Source: Prosopocoilus inquinatus (taxonomy: Eukaryota; Arthropoda; Insecta; Coleoptera; Lucanidae). Taken from it: a stretch of DNA of 64,000 bases. Positions 36,201 to 51,200 of this stretch are shown piece after piece. Position numbers and translations under genes: made by a program. The number at the start of each line of letters is the position of its first letter. Positions within the stretch are counted from its first letter, which is position 1. The stretch spans positions 28,370,001 through 28,434,000 of the forward strand of contig CM069870.1 of the NCBI GenBank assembly GCA_036172665.1. The letters run 5' to 3'. The notes beneath the pieces were generated by a model. The model searched no databases, was not told the DNA's origin, and saw only the letters and a list, made by a program, of their open reading frames with translations.

Positions 36201-39200
36201 CCCGAAACATCCTAAGCCTGCTCATAACGTATGGAGCAGATAAGAAGGGTAGTTAGAGAAGATCAAATTATACCTTTTTTCTTAATAAACGTTTTATAAA
36301 TCAATAACTAACATGAATATAAAGTAAAATTAAGCATTATAAGCAATTATTACTACTTCTATCTGTAATAATATTGTTACGAGTTTGAAGGTTCACAAAT
36401 TATAGTCGTTAAATTTCAGAACACTTTAAATAAAAGCTGTCGCTTTACATAATTATCAACTCAGTAGCTTGAGCTTGTTTATCAAATAACACTTTTACAA
36501 AATGTATTTTCTATTGATTCGAGGTACGAATCCTTCACTTGCCAACTTGATAACTAATTCTAGAATTACCGAGTAGCTTCGGTCATGTTCTGTGATGCAA
36601 GGTTGCGTTACTAATGCTAAAAATAGATCTGTTTGCGCGTCACGGATGTAACAATATTACAAATAACCACAGTTGAGCAGTGGTTTAGAAGAAGCAATTC
36701 TTTAATAATAATATTTTAATTTGTCAATTTAGTTTTATTAATTAAAAAGAAGTGGCCGTAAAGTTATATTAAACTTTCTTGTTCTTGGATTTTAGACAAA
36801 AGCGAAATAATCAAAAATTTGAAGATTACATTAATTTTGACACTTATTAGGCTGCGTTAACTTGATAGACAGACCGGCCACTCTCCTACTGACTCGTCCT
36901 CAAAATTGCTTGTCCTGCTTTGGAGAATTAAGTTTTTTTTTTTGGGGGGGATTACTGTCATCATTGATCACGTGATCAGTCAGCAGCAGTTTCTGTTCTG
37001 TTGTTTTTAAGGTCAATTTGTCTTCGTATATCTTAAAAACTTATGTCAAATAGTTTTTTGACAACTTACGTCAAACATAGATACCTTTAAACCGCCAATT
37101 ATTCTAATCTCCAAAATAGGAATAGCAGCTTAAGGAAATTAGATACAAAAATATCTTGTACAATACTAAGTAATTACTTACGCAATTAAACATTGAAGCG
37201 TATCTTTTATTACAATTATGTTTTCATAAGACACCTTCACATCATCAACATCATTTTTGTTTTCTTTCTTCGATTTCTTTTGCATAGCGTCAATAGCGAA
37301 TGTAGATAAGGGTCTATCTATTGATAACAGAGGAGGGAGAAATGTCTTCAGTATTCTGCTGCTGTTTATTTCAACGTAATCATGAGGGAAGTGTTTCATT
37401 TGGTCATTCACATCTACATGCAAATCTATATCAGATAAACTTACTACATGTAGATCGATGGTTACAATTCTATAAAAATTTATCGGCATCGGTATTATCT
37501 TAACATCGTTTTCCTGAAAAAAAAAAAAAATAATAGAAATATTAATATGTAAAGATGATTCATCTGTACGGGATAAGTGGTTCCCTTTTCGGTAATAGTA
37601 AAGTAATTTTTTATTTCTTCTTCTCGTAAGTTATAAGCAATAACTGATTGCTTATGTAAATAATACTGGGTATGGTCCAAAAATTTGCATGGGATTTGTA
37701 ATCGAGTCCTGCAAGGCTGACCAAATGATGATACTTGTATTCTTAAAGCGCAAGATTCATGTGGTTTCAACACACCCTTACTGTATAAAACCTTAGCTTC
37801 CACACAGTCTTCTAAAATAAATCTAAAACTTGATACTTTAAAAAAGATACAGTTTATAGAAACTTATTTAATTACTTTTGGAAAGAAAAGCCAATCACTC
37901 TGTCTTCGGAAATGTTTTGGACAAATATTAATTTTTCCATAGAATTCCAGACTGGAATTTTGTTACACAAAATATGTAATTGTGATAATACCACTGGCGT
38001 TTCGGGTTTGAAAATTCTTTGGGATGAATTGAAAAGGGGACGCATTTTCAATGTACGCTTTTTTAGAGAAATTTTGTCTACTCCTTGCCCAAAAATGTGC
38101 ATAACATGTTCATCTTGACCCATTATTAGAGGTATTTCATACTAAAATATGTATTACAGAATAAAGGAAAACATTTGTCATAATTATAAACCATCTAATT
38201 TCTAAATATTGGCGGACATTCTTTTAAATTAAGTTTAAGATTAAAGCTGCATTTAATTGCCCATTAAAGATGATATGGTATTTGATATACAAAGAAGGCA
38301 TGTTTTATTCATAAAAAAGGAAGGGGGTTGTTAATACTGTGGCGCACCAACCGGCTTAGCGCAAGGCGCCAAGAAGTCGGCCGCTTCGATGTATCATCGG
38401 CCGTCACGCGTTCGGGGCCCATATCGAGCAAACTAGAATCTTCCAGCATCGAGACTTCCAGACGCCAACAGTAGATATAAAATCGCCCGGAGTTGACTCA
38501 CGAGTCAGTCGAATTCGAGCAGCGATAGTCGAAGTTAGATTTTAGTGTGAAAATAAATTGTTAGAAATAAATTAGTTTTTAAGCTTCATTAAATTACGGT
38601 TAAGTTTTTATCGAGTGTTTTATTCGTTTAAATAAATAAACTCAAACCCTAGAAACGTAACAATGGTGTCGGTGTGCGGGTTTGTGCAAATAAATAAACA
38701 ATTTAAAGTAAATTAAATTTAATCAGATTATTAAATAAGTACAGTATAGAAAAAAAAAAAAAAAAAAACAATGGCTACGAGAAAAGTGTTGTTGAAAGAC
38801 TTAAAAGTGGCCGAATTAAAAACCGAATTGGAAGAACGAGAGTTAGAAACCTGTGGTTTGAAAGGCGCACTTCAACAGCGTCTCCGATCCGATTTGTTAA
38901 CAGCTGGTGAAGATCCAGAGACGTTCCTTTTCGAAATTTCGTGTGGTCCCGTCGATTTTAATAAAATCTTGAAGGATGAATTTCGAGAACAATCCAGAAA
39001 TTTAGAGGAGAAGCTTCTAGAACAATCTGGAAATTTCAAGGACGAACTTCGAGAACAATCCAGAAATTTGGACGAGAAGTTTCAAGAACAGTCTGGAAAT
39101 TTAGAGAAGCTTCAAGAACAATCCAGAAATTTAGAGGAGAAGCTTCTAGAACAATCTGGAAATTTCAAGGACGAACTTCGAGAACAATCCAGAAATTTGG

Positions 39201-42200
39201 ACGAGAAGCTTCAAGAACAATCCAGAAATTTAGAGGAGAAGCTTCTAGAACAATCTGGAAATTTCGACAAATTACAAAATAAATTGTTGGAACAATCTAG
39301 AGACTTAGACGAGAAATTTCTAGAGCAATCCAGAAATTTCGACGAGAAACTTCTAGAACAGTCCGGAAATTTGAAGGGTGAATTTCTAGAACAGACGAAA
39401 GGACTCGAAGATAAACTAGTGGTAAAAATATCGGAAGAAACAAGAAACCTTCAAGAAAATGTGGAAGAAATAATATTCCAGCAGGATAATAAAATCAAAA
39501 ATCTGGAACAAATCATGGCGGGGTTGCGAGTGTTCGGGGATCAGCCACCAGTAGAAGTACTAGAAAATAATGAAACCCGAATTGTGGAAGGACCAACAGA
39601 AAATTCTAAACTGAAGATAAAACCACCAACGTTCGATGGAAAGTCTTCTTGGCCCAACTACTTCAAACAGTTCGAAGCAGCAGCAAAGGCAAACAGATGG
39701 ACGGCCAGCGAAAAAGCCACTTCGTTAATTGTGGCCTTGAGAGGGGACGCTATCGATGTGCTGCAGACGATGCCGCCAGAGGAACAAGAAGACTTCGACA
39801 AGCTGGTGAATAGGATGGAAATGCGTTACGGACAGGCCCATCTGACCGAGGTATACCATGCGCAGTTGAGGAATCGCTGTCAGAAATCCGGAGAAAGTCT
39901 TCAGGAATTCGAAGCAGACGTTGCGCGTCTGGCCCAGTTGGCATATCCCACAGCTCCTGTTGAATTCCTCAAATGTTTGACGGTGCAGACCTTCATAGAT
40001 GGAATCCGTGACCCAGACAACCAGCAGGCATTGAGAATGACCCATCCGAAGACGTCCAAGAACGCATTAGCTTATGCCTTGGAATTTGAAGCGGCGAGAC
40101 GAGTTTCAAGAGGGCATGTCAAGGTTCGAGCGGCTATGGACTTCCAAGAGGAAGAAGAGGAAGAGTCCACCAACGCCAAGGTGGGATCTGCTAATAAGGG
40201 GCAATCCAAGGAATATGCCACCGCCGAGGATGTTCGCCGCATTGTGGAACAGGTCCTCAAGCAGAAGAAGCCGCTGGTGTGTTGGAATTGCCAGGAGGAA
40301 GGACATGTTCGTAGGCGATGTCCGAAACCCAGACAGGATCCAAGGAAGCCACAGTTAAACTAAGCCGGGTCGGTGCAGAGGGGCAAACGTCGACCCGTAT
40401 TCAAAGGCCCCCAAAGACGAAAGCCAACCAAGTAATATTCCTACGGCAGTTAACCAGCAGTGTCTTCGTGGATGTTACCATTGATGACATTCCTCACACC
40501 ATGTTGTTGGATACGGGTGCGACGAAGACCATCCTAAGACCCGACGTCATTAAGTCATCTGGACGCACCGAGCCGACCAAGTGGAAACTGAAAACTGCAA
40601 CTGGAACATCAGCAACTGTCCACGGTGAAGTAGAGGTTATCATCACCATTGGTTCAACTCCAATTAAACACCGTGCACTGGTGGCAGATATAGAGGACGA
40701 GGCAATTTTGGGCATGGACGTCATGTGTGCCCACGGGTTCCAATTGGACTTAAAGCGTGGCGTGATGGCGGTCAATAATGAGGAGTTGGTTCTACATCAA
40801 CGAGGGGACGTGGCCGCTCGAGTAGTCCTCGCTGAAGACGTTGTATTACCCAGCAGGACTGAGGTTATCGTCGACGCAAAACTGGACGGTGTTTTTCAAG
40901 ATGGGCAAGTCATTATGGTTGAACCTAATACTGATGATCAAAGGATTGGAAGAGGAGTCCTCGTTGGGAAAATGTTGTTGACGGCGAAGAAGGAAGTACC
41001 TGTCCGCCTGATGAACGTCAATTGTTTCTCTGTCAATATCAAGAAAGGAACAATCTTGGGAAGCTGCACCATGGTGTCCTCCATCTCCCGGCAACTCGAA
41101 ACAAACGTGCCAGAAGCGAAAGTCCCAAAGAAATTATGGGAAATGGTTATGTCAACAGCCCAGGAATTGACTCCAGACCAGAAGACAAAAGCAAAGAATC
41201 TGATCGGCCGCTATCAAGATGTATTTGAGGTAGAAAATGGATCCAAGGGAAGAACTGATGTCGTGAAACACAAAATAGAGACTGGAGAAGAAAGACCTAT
41301 CCGTCAAGCTCCAAGGCGATTACCGTTGGCGAAGCGTGAGGAAGCGGAACGCATTATTCGCGAGATGGAAAAGGATAATGTAATAGAACCATCAAGCAGC
41401 CCGTGGGCGTCACCAGTAGTGCTTGTGAAGAAGAAGGATGGGTCCACCAGGTTCTGTGTAGACTACCGGTTACTCAATAATGTCACCAAGAAGGACAGCT
41501 ATCCCTTGCCCCGGATTGATGATACCCTGGACACCCTGGCCGGCTCAAAGATCTTCTCAACTTTGGACTTAAAGAGTGGATATTGGCAAGTGGAGCTGGC
41601 GCCCGAAGATCGAGAAAAGACGGCGTTTTCCATTGGTATGGGTCTGTGGCAGTTCACAGTGATGCCATTCGGGTTATGTAATGCCCCAGCGACATTCGAG
41701 AGGTTAATGGAGACGGTTCTGAAAGGTCTGTCCTGGACAACGTGCATGGTGTACCTTGACGACATAATTGTCGTGGGAAAGACGTTCGACGACCACCTAA
41801 GGAACCTGGAAGGAGTGTTCCAGCGGCTTCGCGGAGCTGGACTAAAGCTTAGCCTCAAGAAGTGTCACCTGTTCCAGAAGGAAGTGAATTACCTGGGGCA
41901 CATTGTTAATGGAAACGGAATCGCCGTGGACCCTGTGAAGATTCAGGTGGTGAAAGACTGGCCAACTCCCAGAAATAAACACCAAATAAGGAGTTTCCTT
42001 GGCCTGTGCACTTACTATCGGCGCTACGTTCCTGGATTTGCAGACATTGCTAAGCCGTTGACAAAACTCACTGAAGAAGGTCGTCCATTTGAATGGGACC
42101 AACAGTGTCAAATTGGCTTTGAACAACTAAAGCAGTACTTGGTTAGTGCTCCTATTCTGAGTTATCCTCTCCCGGAAGGCAAGTTCGTCGTGGACACAGA

Positions 42201-45200
42201 TGCTAGCAACGTTGGAATTGGTGGCGTACTCTCCCAGATACAAGAGGGGCAAGAGAAGGTGATCGGCTACTTCAGTAAAGTCCTATCAAAGCCGGAACGA
42301 AACTATTGCGTCACAAGAAGGGAATTGCTAGCCGTCGTAAAAACGATAGAACACTTCTACAAGTACTTGTATGGTAGACGCTTCCTGCTGAGGACCGACC
42401 ACGCCGCTCTAAAATGGCTTCTCCGTTTCAAGAACCCAGAAGGGCAAGTTGCACGATGGATCGAACGACTTCAGGAGTACGATTTTGAAATTCAGCATCG
42501 GGCAGGAACTAGCCATCGAAATGCCGATGCTCTGTCGAGAAGACCCTGTGCCGAAGACTGTAAGCACTGTAGTCGTTTGGACGAGAAAGTAGCCACGACT
42601 GCGAGGACAGCCATTGTTGATGACAAATGGCAAGGCGAAGAACTGCGAAGAGACCAGGAGAACGACCCGGATTTGAAATTAGTGCTAGAATGGAAAAGCA
42701 GGAACGCGAGGCCTACCTGGGAAGAGGTAGCACCATGTGCACCGTCCGTAAAATCATACTGGGCGCAGTGGGACTCCATAGTGTTGGATCGTGGTCTTCT
42801 GAGACGAAGCATAGAGAATCAGGAAGGCATGGAACAGAAGACACAGTTACTGATCCCCAAGAATAGGGTGCCAGAAGTTCTGAGGGAACTTCACGATGGA
42901 ACTTCCGGAGGGCATCTGGGAGTTAAGAAGACTATGGAGAAGGTGCGCGAAAGATTTTACTGGGTGAACTGCAAGGAAGACGTGAAGGATTGGTGCAGAA
43001 AGTGTACAGTCTGCGCAGCCAGTAACGGTTCCCACAGGCGGGGTAAGGCTCCCATGAGACAGTACAACGTTGGAAGTCCTTTTGAGAGAGTTGCCATCGA
43101 TGTAGCCGGCCCGTTTCCAGAAACGAATGGTGGAAACAAGTACATCGTCGTGGTAATGGACTACTTTAGCAAGTGGGTTGAAGCTTACGCCCTACCTAAC
43201 CAAGAGGCGGTCACTATTGCGGAAGTCCTTGTCAGGGAATGGATCAGTCGGTATGGTGCACCTATGGAACTGCATTCAGACCAAGGAAGGAACTTTGAAT
43301 CGGCCTTGTTCAAGAACGTGTGTACTCTGCTCGGCGTACGAAAAACTAGAACAACTGCACTCCACCCACAGTCGGACGGAATGGTGGAAAGGTTCAATAG
43401 AACCATCAACCGACATTTGTCCAAGGTCGTTTCCAATCATCAGAGGGACTGGGACACGTACATCCCCCTGTTTCTAATGGCATACCGCTCATCTGTTCAT
43501 GAGACAACAGGGGAGACTCCCGCGAAAGTGGTATTCGGGCGAGAGCCGAGACTGCCCTGCGACCTGAAGTTTGGTGTGAAGCCTGGCGAAGTCTCTGCCG
43601 ACGAAGATTACGTGAGCAAATTACGCAGGAAAATGGATGATATCCACAACCAAGTGCGTCACAATATACAGACGGCCAGCGATCGGATGAAGGAGCACTA
43701 TGACATCAACGCTCAACACGGGGGATACCAACCTGGAGCACTGGTCTGGCTTTATAACCCCCAAAGACGTCGAGGCCTCTCCCCAAAATTACAGACCTCT
43801 TGGGAAGGTCCTTACAAAGTGATGAAACGGATCAACGACGTCGTTTACCGCATCAAGAAGGTCCCCCATGGCAAACCCAAAGTAATCCACTTCAACCGGA
43901 TAGCCCCTTACCATGGAGAAGCAGATGAAGGGACAGTACAAAGGGCGCAAGTTTCCGAAGTGAACTTCGAAACCTTCATGTCTCATCACGCCGAAGGAAG
44001 CAAGGCACGGTTTGGAGTGACCACGGAGAAGCAACAAGATCTCTTTAAAGTGCCACCGGAGTACAGTCTGGCCCACTGCGTAGCAGAAGACCTGAAAATG
44101 TCCAAAGGAATCGCTCAGGTGTTTAGGAAGAAATTTGGCCAAATCGAGGAGCTACGAAGACAGCATCCCGTGGTAGGCAAGAGCTTGCAGATCATTGATT
44201 CGACGGCAGATCGGAGGCGCCACGTGCATTATTTAGTCACTAAGAAGACATCAAGCGGTAAACCTGACTATCAAAGTATGTGGAGAGCCCTATATAGCCT
44301 AAGGAGACAGCTAATAGAGACCCATCAGATGAAGCTAGCCATCCCCAAATTGGGCTGCGGATTGGACGGACTAGACTGGAGAGTAATTCGAAACATGCTG
44401 GAAGTCATCTTCCACAGAACGGGAATTGAAGTCTTAGTCTGCAGCCACCACCCACAGGCAACAGTCAGCAACAGCAAAACCGTAGACTGTTACTTCTTCC
44501 AGACGGGAAGTTGCAAGACTGGGCCAGCATGTAGATTCCGACACCCTCCTTCAAGACTATCACCAGGAACATTTCGAGACGAAACGTTTTTAAGAAGGGG
44601 GCAGTGTGGCGCACCAACCGGCTTAGCGCAAGGCGCCAAGAAGTCGGCCGCTTCGATGTATCATCGGCCGTCACGCGTTCGGGGCCCATATCGAGCAAAC
44701 TAGAATCTTCCAGCATCGAGACTTCCAGACGCCAACAGTAGATATAAAATCGCCCGGAGTTGACTCACGAGTCAGTCGAATTCGAGCAGCGATAGTCGAA
44801 GTTAGATTTTAGTGTGAAAATAAATTGTTAGAAATAAATTAGTTTTTAAGCTTCATTAAATTACGGTTAAGTTTTTATCGAGTGTTTTATTCGTTTAAAT
44901 AAATAAACTCAAACCCTAGAAACGTAACAATACTTACAGTGTAACTTTTAATTTTAATTGGTTGAAATCTAAATAATAATTTATAAAAACTATATGGTAA
45001 TAATGTGCCTTCCGGATTAAGACATTCCAATTGTGGTTTTCCATTCCTATGAGTCTGTCTTATTAATTTGTATATTTTAAATGAGTAACTGACGTCATTT
45101 GCAGAGTTATTATAAAATGAAAATGTCTGAAACAAACAAAAATCACGTGTACACAGATGTAACTTTATCAGTTTAGGCATTACCTTTATACCTGGTCGCT

Positions 45201-48200
45201 TCTCACAAACACAAACGGCTCCCAAATTCAATTCAAAGCTTGTCTTATATTTTGATGGTCGATCTACATCGTACGTTAGAACGTTGTAGCTTATATTTAA
45301 TATTAAAGTCCGATTTTGTGGTAAATACAGAGCGTATGACATCTCAACGGGACCTGGCTCAAGGTATCTTATAGTAATAGTTAATTTCTGATATGAATTC
45401 GGCTAAAATCTTATTTTTAGTAACTTGCTTGTTATATGAAAATACTTAAGTACCTACTTCAAAATTGTTTGCAGACAATTTCATTTCGAACATCTCTCGG
45501 TGTTTACATTGATACACTTTTGTGGTGAAACTTAGTCCTTTTGATTTTTGTACTAATGGACAGGCGCAAATTTTATTTCGTTTAAGCTCCACATTCATTT
45601 CGAATTTTGACTTATTTCTTAGAATTAGAAACACGTAGAATACATTTTCGGAAACTTCATAATCAGGTAGAGTTACATTCAGAGTTTTAACTTCTCCGAA
45701 CTTCAGATTTCGTAATGCAGCGTTAATTCTGAGAGAAATAGGTAGGTATATTAATGTAAACTTTGACTGAGAAATTAGAAATTACTTTTGTATACCCATT
45801 TGTTCTGCTAGATATATTTTTCCAAAAAGGTGGTTGAAATTACAATCAAGCACATCCTCAATCTATAATATTTCGATTGTCAATTATATTTGTAATAATA
45901 CGCTGTAGAAAGTTTATTTACCTTTATTACGGAATTTTGACAGAAGAATCTTATATGCAGTAATTTATATGAATTCATATCAACGATTTCGGACGATTCT
46001 TTATTAATACGAACTTTATACGCAACTTTGATAGTGAAGCTTCCTATCTGATTTATTTTCAAGCACACCAGGATAGGTTTCTTGCTTTTCGGTTTCAAAG
46101 TGCCTTGGCTGGGTACAATGGTAAGATTTTCATGAGCAAACCTGAGTGTCTTCTCCACCTTTTCGATTTGATAATGTATCGTGGACGGTCCAAAATTAAA
46201 TAGAGTGAATTTTTTGGAATGTTTTGAATCCATTTGTACTTCGTCTAATTCCCAATGATTTGGTATAGACTAAAGGGCAAATGAGGAAGGAAAGTAAGGC
46301 ACAATTATGCGAGTGACTTACACACAATTGTGAAAACCAACATTCAGCTTTCACTTTCACCGCTATTTCTAAGGGATGTCCGGAAATAACTTGTTTTTGA
46401 ACACTGTATATTTCACACCAGACTTTAAATTTGCGAGGACCTTTTAATCTTCCCGTGGTCTTCCATTCTAATTTAATCTGCTCGTTTGGGGCGATATTAC
46501 CTTCTACGTAGTTTATTTGTAGCAAATTAGGTTTTTCTCTGAATTTATAACTAATAATTATATAATAAGTATGAGTTTTAAAATTGGACAATAGTTTATA
46601 ATGTAGCAATTTGTACCGATTAGTTTAACTAATAATTATAATGTGACACGATATGTTGTACGTCATCATATTCTAATCCGTAGTTAAACTAATCGGCCCA
46701 TCATTCGCTTCCAGATACCGGGCCTTAGTAACAAAAAAAAAATCAAATACTTACCGTATATGATGAGCAGATTTGTTTTTAATATTTACTAAAGCCACCT
46801 CTTCGCATCCAGGATATATTTTATCAAAAGTGACGACATTCTTTTTTCCAATCTCGATGAATGGAATTTCTGAATACGCCTTTATAAAAATCGGTACACA
46901 ATTACAAGCATTACCATTCAGCTCAACATCCCATCGTTCTATATAAGCCTTCCTGTTGTCAGAATCTGCTTCTAATTGGACGACAATGATCGCAAAAGTA
47001 TTCACTATCCCAACCATTGGTTTGACGATGAAATTCCTAACAGGTATTACTTAAATCAGTATTAAGTAGAGGATTTCGGTTAGATCAAACTACGCCTTAC
47101 TGTATTTGTGTACCTATTGAGACTGATGCCAATTAAATTAATAAACAATTTATTGTCGATTGACAATAATGCCATTTTATTTGAAGTATACCGATAAATA
47201 TGTGCTTGGATTGTTTAACGAAGCGGTTGCGTTTATATTCAATAATAGTTAACCTAAGATCATCCGCTCCGTACTAATGACAGTTATTAATACGGAGCGG
47301 ATGACCTTAGGTTAACTATTATTGAATATAAACGCAACGCATCTGAGATTTTACATAAGGTGATTGAAACTATTTTTTCTTCTATATTTACTTATCTACA
47401 CTCTTTTATATCGCGTAAATGACTTAATGTTAGTCCAAGCAAGTTGCTTACTTCTGATATTAATAACTTAATTTTCTTCGTTCTCTAATTATTAGCATTG
47501 CTGTTATTACGTCAGGTTTTAAGATATAAAAACAAACATTAATAAGATCGTAAGGTAATACATTGTAAAGTTGGAACAAACTGAATAATACTTACGAATT
47601 TTTAGGTGGCAAAAATCTGAAGGAAACTGGTAAGTAACCGGTTGTTCTTAATAAGAATGTCGAGTAACTTGAATAATTTGGCATACAAGAAGGTAGTGTC
47701 ACCTTTTCGGGAATTTCTATTTGAGGAATCCATTTTCTATTGATCGGGAAAGAGTTGCCAAACAACCGTAACGTAATGCACAAGGGTACGATGGTGTGCT
47801 GACATTCGTCTTCTGTATCTTTTTCCTCAGGTATCCAAAACACTCGTCCTCTTAAAGTTTCGCAGAAAAAGGTATCTGCTACTTTGGGAATGAATTCGCA
47901 CTCGTATAAAACTGAATCGTTGGGTGGTATTTTGATGTTCATGGGGGTGATTTGAAATACTTTTGTTATATCTGCATAAAATACAAAAGTTAAATTTACC
48001 CAAAAATTTGTTGTAACAGTCTTCTTTGAGTGTGATAAGAAAATAAAAGAAAATTTCCGGAAGTGTCCGAAAAACGAATCGACACAATTGCTAGCAGATT
48101 ATTTTTGGCCTAAATTTTGTGTATGTATTTTACACTTTCTTACCTTTTGTCCAAATAACATTAATTGGCTCTTGCATGTGATTTGTTAAGCAAGTGACAA

Positions 48201-51200
48201 GAGTTCTCGAACTTTCATTTGCATCTACAGTAACTCTTCCGAAATCCAGATAGTTCGTGCTTAAAGTGAATGGTGGTGGATGTTGAGTACTTCTTTGACA
48301 GTCACGCAAATATCCACCGAATCCATTTCTGTAAGAGATATCTTCTGAGTAGTATCTCAGTTGAGTTTCTTTCGCAATATCATGATTTTCTTCCGTAAAT
48401 AAACCAACCAAGTAAAGTATACATGGTTTCTGAGCAAAAATAAATTTTAAATCAAGTCACTGGCAGAGGCTTACTGAATTGCTTACGTGATGTAAAATTA
48501 AACATTCCAATTTGTCGCTGTAGATGCCGATCCTTTTCGGCGTGAAAGTGATTGTGAAATACATTTGTTTGCTTGGACCTATTTCTCCGGTGAGTTTGTC
48601 CAGTTCAAAACATCCAAACTGATTTTTACTGACATCGAACTGGTATTTTACAGGAATGTCTGATAAATTCTTTAGTTCGACAGTATGCTTGGCAGATCTC
48701 TTTCTTGGATTGCAGTAAAATGTTAGACAATTAATGGATAATTGTACGTGAGGACCTGAAAAGTTATGATTTTTTTTACACAGATCCAAAGAAAACATGA
48801 ATTTTATAACACTTATAGAAGAGAGAATAAATTTAAAATAATAGATATAAATACAAATCTTTTAGCAAACTATAAGCAAAGTAATTTGCATTTATGAAAA
48901 ATTAATATAACTACAAAATCTGAACTGAAATTTTAATTACTATTTTTAAATTATCCTTTAAACAGAAACGCTATAAAAAACGAATTCAGAGAAGAAGTAG
49001 GTACTCTGCTTCAATGCATGTAAGAGTGAGAAAAATAGAATAACTTAAACCACTACTGTATTTACAATTATTACTATCATTCAGTAAAAGTTAATTTGCA
49101 GCAATTAATATAATAGGGCCTAAGTGTATTATATCTTAACACGACTTATTTTATCTTGAATCCTTTACTTACCAAGAGATTCCCCTCTCAGAATCAACTT
49201 ATGTGTGTTTGATGTACCATCGTTGATAAATATGTCATCTAAATGGGTTTCCAGTTCAATTTGGGGAGTATAAGTAATTTTACATTCGAATTTCTTTCCA
49301 GGCTCCACTCTGGACGTGTAAACGAAATCAAACATGTGGTAAATAGGATTAACATCAGGATTTCGCAGCACACTGTATACTTTTTCATGCTGTAAATTTT
49401 TCAGTTTAAGAAAAATCTATTTACGTGGAGGTGTTAACTGGACTTGCTGTTTATTACTCAATAAATCAAGTGAAAAAAATATTAGAAAATATTAAAATAT
49501 TAAATAAAGGTGAACAATAATTATTTTTAATTTGAAGCCGGTTCCAAGTTTTGGGACAGCTTTATATTAACAAAAATAAAAAATTAATAACTGAGTTGTA
49601 GTGTGGCTTCCAAAAAAAATCGCGTTTTTCATTGTATTAAGTTGATCTTGAGATTGAATTTGTCTTTGAATTTGAGACTGACAGAAAACGAATAGTGATT
49701 TACAGTAGTAGCGAATGATTATGGCTTAAATAAAAATACTATGATGCACGAAGAAAATGTGGGAAGAGTAAAGTGATCATTCATTTTCATTCAAAAACGG
49801 GACAACCTTGAAAAATTAAACGAAATTCAGTAAAAAATACAAAATATTCTAACAACACCCAAAGTATAGTCATCTACTCAGCTGAGAAAGTTATAATCAG
49901 AACCATCTGTCGATTTTTCGAAAAATTACGTAATTTATGAAACCAAAATATCACAGACTATAATGATTGGTGCTCAAAAGCGTTTTATATTAATAAAACC
50001 ATATAGATTTCAAGTAACACGAATTCGAAAAAACAGAAGATCTGCTGTTAAAACCGTAGTGTTGGAAAAGTATCGTTTATTTACGACTATATAAGTTCTG
50101 TACAACGGGACATTTATAGCTTTATAGATTTTCAAAACGGGACATTTTTGCGTCCTGAATGATCTCTCGGGGGCAACCAATGGGACAACATTTTCAAAAA
50201 TGGTATTGTTCCGTTGAAAACGGGACGTATGGTCACTTTAAGGCAGAGGAAAAAATTGCAAATAGAAAAGTTGGTTGGAGATGGATGTCCAAAGATGTTG
50301 ATTCACGATTCCGATAATGCCCTTCTGAATTGTTCAAAAAAAAAAACCATTTGAAACGGCAAGGGATTCCATATTTAACAAATTTTTAAGTGCTCTAGTC
50401 ACCAACATGTGGGAAATTACAAATTCAGTTCAAGAGTCTCGTCAAATGTTAAAACAAATTATATTAATAGCTGAACACAAGCAATAGCCCATTCTACTTG
50501 CGTTAAATTGTATTTATGGGCCGTTAACGGCGTAATATTTATTGAACATATCATACTCTTGGTTCATACACCAGATAAAATAGAGTCAGTTTCTAACCTG
50601 TATGTTTGGAAGTATGTCAAAATTCTCAAAATGCCCATTTACAAAGCAATAGGTAAAAACTATAATACTTGATTTTGGAGGTGTATGCGATTTTATTGCA
50701 AGGAAGTGTATATATTTGAATACTTTTTTTTATTTTGTTTTCCATTTTTTTGTCGTCAAGAACATCAACCCTAAATGAAGACCACCAGAATAATGCTTAT
50801 CAAAAGAACATGTGTCTCAAGCAAGCAATAGTAGCCAGAGATTACAATGCAAGAATAACGCCAAGAAAAAGACAAGGGGATACAATTTCTTTGAAAGAAA
50901 AAGGATAACGTGCAACTTGGTCTGATATATCAGATCAGTCCAATTTTCAAAAGCTATTGGGAATAAGGGGACTCCTTAAAGTTAAACAATGAAATTCTTA
51001 AGGAAATGGGTCACCTGATGAGAACAAAATTAAGGAACAGTTGGTACTTCCAAAAGCTGGAATTGCCGAGGTTTAAGAAGAGATACATCGAGATATGTCA
51101 CGTAGGCATTTGGGTATCAACAAGACATTGGTAAAAATCAGGGAAAAGATGCAACTGGGTTAAAGGTAGGATTGATGTCGAAAAATATATTAGTAAGAGC

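Follow-up and report, generated by a model that had tools for sequence, protein, structure and literature searches.

We analysed a 64,000-nucleotide stretch of the genome of the beetle Prosopocoilus inquinatus (hereafter the window; positions 28,370,001 to 28,434,000 of contig CM069870.1), which carries a Ty3/gypsy retrotransposon whose Pol protein ends in a macrodomain of the TARG1/OARD1 type followed by a CCCH zinc finger. The element has a pair of long terminal repeats (LTRs), a target-site duplication and a polypurine tract. In a Pfam scan, the Pol domains follow the order typical of Ty3/gypsy elements (Metaviridae): protease, reverse transcriptase (RT), RNase H and integrase. Because both LTRs are identical, they point to a recent insertion. 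The features of the element are:

38334..38337, no strand: target-site duplication ATAC, partner at 44930-44933, read from the sequence
38338..38662, + strand: 5' LTR, TG...CA, 325 bases, identical with the 3' LTR
38771..40363, + strand: Gag frame with an N-terminal SAP domain, repeats of 33-nucleotide period (11 residues) and a C-terminal CCHC knuckle
40315..44703, + strand: Pol open frame of 1,462 codons, overlapping Gag by 49 nucleotides in the -1 frame, with its stop within the 3' LTR
40468..40722, + strand: aspartic protease, residues 52-136 (Pfam PF13650, E 1.1e-9)
41425..41907, + strand: RT core, residues 371-531 (Pfam PF00078, E 1.3e-37)
42172..42480, + strand: RNase H, residues 620-722 (Pfam PF17917, E 1.8e-33)
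42853..43908, + strand: integrase with H2C2, rve core and p58-like C-terminal domain, residues 847-1198 (Pfam PF17921, PF00665, PF22938)
44020..44469, + strand: TARG1/OARD1-type macrodomain, residues 1236-1385, by sequence and predicted fold
44242..44244, + strand: Lys aligned with catalytic K84 of TARG1, K1310 of the open frame (K1309 from the first Met)
44365..44367, + strand: Asp aligned with D125 of TARG1, D1351 of the open frame (D1350 from the first Met)
44476..44550, + strand: CCCH zinc finger C-x7-C-x5-C-x3-H, residues 1388-1412 (Pfam PF00642 above cut-off; CPSF4 best in PDB)
44592..44604, + strand: polypurine tract, read through by the Pol frame, from the sequence
44605..44929, + strand: 3' LTR, 325 bases

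The macrodomain aligns with human TARG1 over nearly its full length (phmmer against PDB: 2eee, E 2.7e-28; 4j5r, 3.8e-28) and is 36% identical to it. It scores below the cut-off of 22 bits in the general Pfam Macro model, reaching 14.3 bits in the whole Pol and 18.3 bits in the tail. A structure model built with 13 aligned sequences (mean predicted local distance difference test score, pLDDT, 83.9) has TARG1 as its top PDB matches by both Foldseek and VIA-align, closer than to other macrodomains; X-domains of the alphavirus and coronavirus type are not its closest relatives. The original prediction, drawn from the letters of the sequence, was that a Ty3/gypsy Pol ends here in a TARG1-type macrodomain, and the open frame, the PDB matches and the predicted fold bear it out. 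Its coordinates of 44010..44460 were right to about 10 bases, and the structure search that it had proposed returned TARG1 as the best match. Alignment likewise confirmed its placement of K1309 and D1350 at the TARG1 catalytic positions, the latter of which we take to be D125 in the human protein; the spacing of 41 residues is the same as in TARG1. Judged by these residues, the domain is likely an active ADP-ribosyl-hydrolase. Among predicted viral protein structures, the best match to the model was VP8 of Kadipiro virus, and thrips-associated viruses were among the matches listed; the names suggest insect-associated RNA viruses.

Two things were overlooked in the original prediction: the CCCH finger, and other gypsy lineages of the same genome that carry the same kind of domain, some of them elsewhere in Pol. 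The finger directly follows the macrodomain, and residues 1388-1412 fit the pattern C-x7/8-C-x5-C-x3-H. Pfam PF00642 recognizes it with 21.2 bits in the whole Pol, against a cut-off of 20.5, and with 24.2 bits in the tail. When the stretch was searched in isolation, CPSF4 was closest in PDB, with a whole-protein E of 1.9e-14 and its fourth finger as the best-matching one. From its family, the finger would be expected to bind RNA.

To place the window family, we searched Pol-length public proteins with the Pol tail and obtained 158 matches, 120 of which were examined. Those listed come mainly from Aromia moschata and Molorchus minor and also from Callosobruchus maculatus, all beetles. Element proteins also appear under a fungus, Erysiphe pulchra (P0097, P0185), and in a record of the bacterium Klebsiella (P0102), perhaps as insect contamination. 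The catalytic Lys is kept in 132 and the Asp in 130 of 134 macro-bearing proteins (from a set of 235), a count that includes the window, a leafhopper piece (P0234) and a cellular OARD1 (P0235) and in which many entries are copies from one beetle. Departures at the pair are one R, two N and one G, and one row covers neither position. The CCCH pattern recurs in 118 of the 134, some of the other 16 being cut or partial; in P0136 the finger is degenerate. Within the genome of the window, at least 150 macrodomain copies are at least 97% identical to the window's and free of internal stops; of 1,393 first-look places (650 Mb, 173 contigs), these are the 150 that were scored, the best-scoring ones, a choice that leaves older copies out of view. 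Together, public matches and genome copies rule out a chance fusion in a single copy, one of the outcomes that the original prediction had named as refuting it. In some genome copies of the family, one frame stays open for about 1,950-1,990 codons, as long as Gag and Pol together; the window copy has two frames.

Phylogeny assigns the window kind of Pol to one clade. Among the best 120 of 7,942 RT relatives, 23 have an RT identity of at least 73%, and 19 of these carry the macrodomain; of the remaining four, P0138 is seemingly internally deleted, P0141 and P0143 are without it, and P0144 is truncated before that point. The other 97, whose identity is 71.6% or less, show no macrodomain. Several of them are cut or fused gene models; in those that end past the integrase, Pol mostly goes on for no more than about 20 residues. 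A tree of 48 Pols unites 21 macro-bearing rows with P0138, P0141 and P0143 (support 100/100). Over 15 Pol proteins, RT averages 78% identity, the integrase 73%, the macrodomain 52% and the linker 23%.

When the central part of the macrodomain served as query, a protein search returned two proteins among three candidates, the OARD1-like P0234 and P0235, and so tells little about the number of cellular relatives. P0234, from the leafhopper Macrosteles quadrilineatus, is named ADP-ribose glycohydrolase OARD1-like. Its start resembles an integrase tail, and it may be an element piece or a domesticated one. Annotators should be warned that this leafhopper "OARD1-like" protein looks like a piece of such an element. 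No relative was found in the IMG/VR contigs scanned, and a scan of those in GTDB yielded two TARG1-like domains from bacteria, which we used as outgroup.

TARG1-type domains also occur in other gypsy lineages of the same genome. A genome search with P0235 yielded 151 matches, and we read 41 loci (40 of these matches, chosen for diversity rather than at random, plus the window copy), grouping them into classes by eye. Class A, the window family, accounts for ten. Class B (four loci) has another integrase, then a linker with GRPKK, the macrodomain and acidic repeats. In classes C (15 loci) and D (eight loci) the macrodomain lies between protease and RT: among class C loci, L075 and L094 are examples that show the protease, and L079, which belongs to one family with L075, shows the RT; in class D the protease is seen in L083 and the RT in L114, an adjoining stretch of the same copy. 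Class D2 (three loci) has shorter frames with a protease in front, as seen in L076. TARG1 came first in PDB for one macrodomain each of B (E 1.1e-41), C (5.4e-33) and D (2.2e-38). Of four frames scanned, L083, L094 and L084 were above the Pfam Macro cut-off and L079 below it. Across the five element classes and one host gene, window included, the Lys is present in 41/41 loci and the Asp in 40/41. The host gene, L104 (G000:C5:3751704-3753821), is spliced and OARD1-like, with two TARG1-type domains, an acidic linker and a 57-base GT-AG intron inside one of the domains. At L085 (G000:C6:36689512-36691731), class-A and class-C macrodomains lie about 1 kb apart, in elements that are adjacent or nested. 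L090 is another locus of the non-window gypsy lineages with a TARG1-type macrodomain.

Several of these lineages are distinct by RT. Compared with the window RT, class B is 60% identical, class D 49% and class C 48%, and the macro-less relatives of A reach 64-72%. In a tree of 45 RTs, the macro-bearing rows need four changes, all forced by well-supported branches. A single clade of macro-bearing RTs was rejected by the approximately unbiased test (p-AU 0.00027), as were clades uniting A with C (0.0013), A with D (0.00013) and C with D (0.03, with two long branches); a clade of A and B was not rejected (0.219). Because lineages A, C and D do not form one clade by RT, we count at least three macrodomain acquisitions, at two places of Pol, and do not claim four or five. 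The trees by themselves would also allow a single early gain followed by many losses; that the domain occupies two different places in Pol argues against such a history. BLAST with two queries showed no macrodomain in the 28 rows of the RT tree that count as macro-less, several of which are fused or partial gene models. In the macrodomain tree, every element class forms its own clade, and the cellular OARD1s fall between B and the rest with middling deep support; a single clade of all element macrodomains was not rejected (p-AU 0.179). The domain may have been captured repeatedly from hosts, or captured once and then exchanged between elements.

The macrodomain is under amino-acid constraint. 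The ratio of nonsynonymous to synonymous substitution rates (dN/dS) is 0.10-0.20 in the six of 15 pairs with a proportion of synonymous differences (pS) above 0.3, all from classes C, D and D2 and four of them near saturation in dS; the other nine have pS below 0.1 and a dN/dS that scatters from 0.13 to 2.24. In class A, 41 copies picked by protein score, a biased selection, gave 19 nonsynonymous and 23 synonymous changes (P 3e-6 to 3e-4). Ten copies, comprising nine obtained with a cellular OARD1 query and thus chosen through protein, plus the window, gave 25 and 22 (P 0.0001-0.005). The DNA evidence for constraint is weaker in class A than between families of C, D and D2.

A CFAP65-like gene on the opposite strand flanks or encloses the element; its exons at 44890-48861 (minus strand) directly adjoin the insertion. 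Further along the window, at 47226-47338, is a 56-nucleotide inverted repeat with arms 95% complementary and 1 nucleotide apart.

We compared the window element with known systems. Chromoviruses carry an accessory domain directly behind the integrase. The accessory part of the window element occupies the same place and consists of macrodomain and CCCH finger; a chromovirus-type element was rejected, as a Pfam scan of Pol with E up to 1 found no chromodomain there. Human TARG1/OARD1 (C6orf130) and the Drosophila paralogues Targ1-3 are cellular proteins, whereas here the domain is joined in one chain with a retrotransposon integrase and a CCCH finger. Viral macrodomains (alphaviruses, coronaviruses, rubella virus, and TARG1-like ones in insect-associated viruses) likewise sit inside a replication polyprotein. 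The nearest precedent for a retroelement with an acquired macro domain is provided by fish epsilon-like endogenous retroviruses, which occasionally carry open reading frames for macro domain proteins (PMC4977317, citing Basta et al. 2009). Going by that one sentence, these are additional frames in vertebrate retroviruses; here the domain lies within a Ty3/gypsy Pol, in several lineages. Orchid Ty3/Gypsy elements with an AlkB-type N6-methyladenosine demethylase (PMC9289625) and retrotransposons with cytosine methyltransferases (PMC5890265) likewise acquired a host enzyme that acts on nucleic acid, but with other chemistry and in other hosts; in our case several lineages of one genome are involved, within Pol itself. 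The original prediction knew of no described gypsy clade with this domain. That agrees with our searches of open-access literature, in which none of the papers listed concerned a gypsy element with a macrodomain; the paper on Troyka (PMC12440569) contains neither "macro" nor "ADP-ribos". As the fish precedent shows, a macro domain in a retroelement is itself already known.

What might the domain do? We propose that it is an ADP-ribosyl-hydrolase by which the element rids its own protein or nucleic acid of ADP-ribose added by the host, a reading to which we assign a probability of about 0.5. The TARG1 domain, of the cellular type, forms a C-terminal extension of the integrase with an RNA-type finger behind it, and would most likely travel with the pre-integration particle. 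There it would remove ADP-ribose set by host transferases on the integrase or Gag (Asp/Glu-linked), or on the element's RNA or cDNA (base- or end-linked), with the finger holding the macrodomain on nucleic acid. TARG1-type chemistry tethered to an integrase and an RNA-type finger fits such removal; catalysis, delivery, substrate and a host ADP-ribosylation step that restrains elements are what we infer. TARG1 undoes the ADP-ribosylation of thymidine in DNA and shields cells against it, with no rescue by K84A (PMC8501950). It also strips ADP-ribose from uracil in RNA, and two of the three Drosophila paralogues, Targ1 and Targ3, are active on a synthetic uracil-ADP-ribose probe (PMC13036486). 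More tentatively, reverse-transcribing elements in insects could face ADP-ribosylation as a permanent defence or obstacle, set by a writer still to be named, against which gypsy lineages repeatedly took a TARG1-type eraser, behind the integrase or between protease and RT, to act on ADP-ribose on their own RNA or cDNA.

Several observations weigh against removal of ADP-ribose as the function. Most vertebrate PARPs are absent from insects (PMC10221186), which puts the writer in question, and antiviral PARPs are absent from mosquito genomes (PMC7729036). For the chikungunya macrodomain in mosquitoes, ADP-ribose binding, rather than hydrolysis, was critical (PMC12632316). P0140 (K to R, D to N) and P0145 (D to N) have lost catalytic residues and kept the finger, and a macro fold is still predicted for P0140 (pLDDT 78.4). 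Six relatives (P0135, P0139, P0146, P0148, P0149 and P0185) have a macrodomain without a finger. Since these are clade members, and P0140 and P0145 conversely keep the finger with catalytic residues lost, the two modules can be lost separately. P0138, P0141 and P0143 fall inside the clade without a macrodomain. Finally, 30 class-A copies picked by DNA score gave seven nonsynonymous and five synonymous changes (P 0.10-0.23), too few to decide. The weaker selection signal in class A leaves the odds for removal unchanged, because the main argument for it is the conservation of the catalytic pair and the occurrence in several lineages.

Some of these observations suggest other functions. The domain might read ADP-ribose instead of erasing it, binding ADP-ribosylated chromatin and steering integration like the chromodomain at the same place in chromoviruses. 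Its position directly behind the integrase C-terminal domain, the persistence of P0140 and P0145 without the full pair and the chikungunya case (PMC12632316) would all fit. We consider this unlikely: the Lys/Asp pair, needless for a pure reader, is kept in nearly all proteins, and classes C and D place the domain between protease and RT, away from the integrase. P0140 and P0145 also deviate in two glycine-rich loops, which bind ADP-ribose in TARG1. Action in trans on the host is similarly improbable. By this account the domain would lower ADP-ribose signalling, for instance where PARP1, the main nuclear writer in insects, is active at strand breaks or within silent chromatin, and would thereby aid expression or the repair of integration gaps. 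Pol products, however, are scarce and largely particle-bound, and the host already has its own TARG1-like gene, L104. The action of TARG1 on DNA ADP-ribose and its protection of cells (PMC8501950) would favour such a role.

The macro-plus-finger tail could instead be mainly an RNA-binding or structural module of Pol, serving packaging, priming or signal binding, with hydrolysis secondary. The CPSF4-type finger, so widespread by pattern and present even in P0140 and P0145, suits this idea, which we nonetheless find doubtful, as the six finger-less relatives keep both macrodomain and catalytic pair and no finger was found by pattern in the class B, C and D loci read. That the domain is a passenger sequence without function seems very improbable. 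The three macro-less clade members and the non-significant, unbiased count within the family are what one would expect of a passenger; the higher identity of the macrodomain than of the linker, the low dN/dS between families of other classes and the occurrence of more than one acquisition are not.

Removal of ADP-ribose from the element's own components thus remains our preferred reading. The acquisition of one enzyme subtype by several element lineages points to selective pressure, and its presence in several lineages suggests that the ADP-ribose mark is a hurdle for these retrotransposons. ADP-ribosylation of retroelement protein, RNA or DNA would be unexpected in insects, which have few PARPs of the vertebrate type. 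The type of eraser indicates which chemistry to search for: ADP-ribose linked to Asp/Glu, thymidine or uracil, or end-linked.
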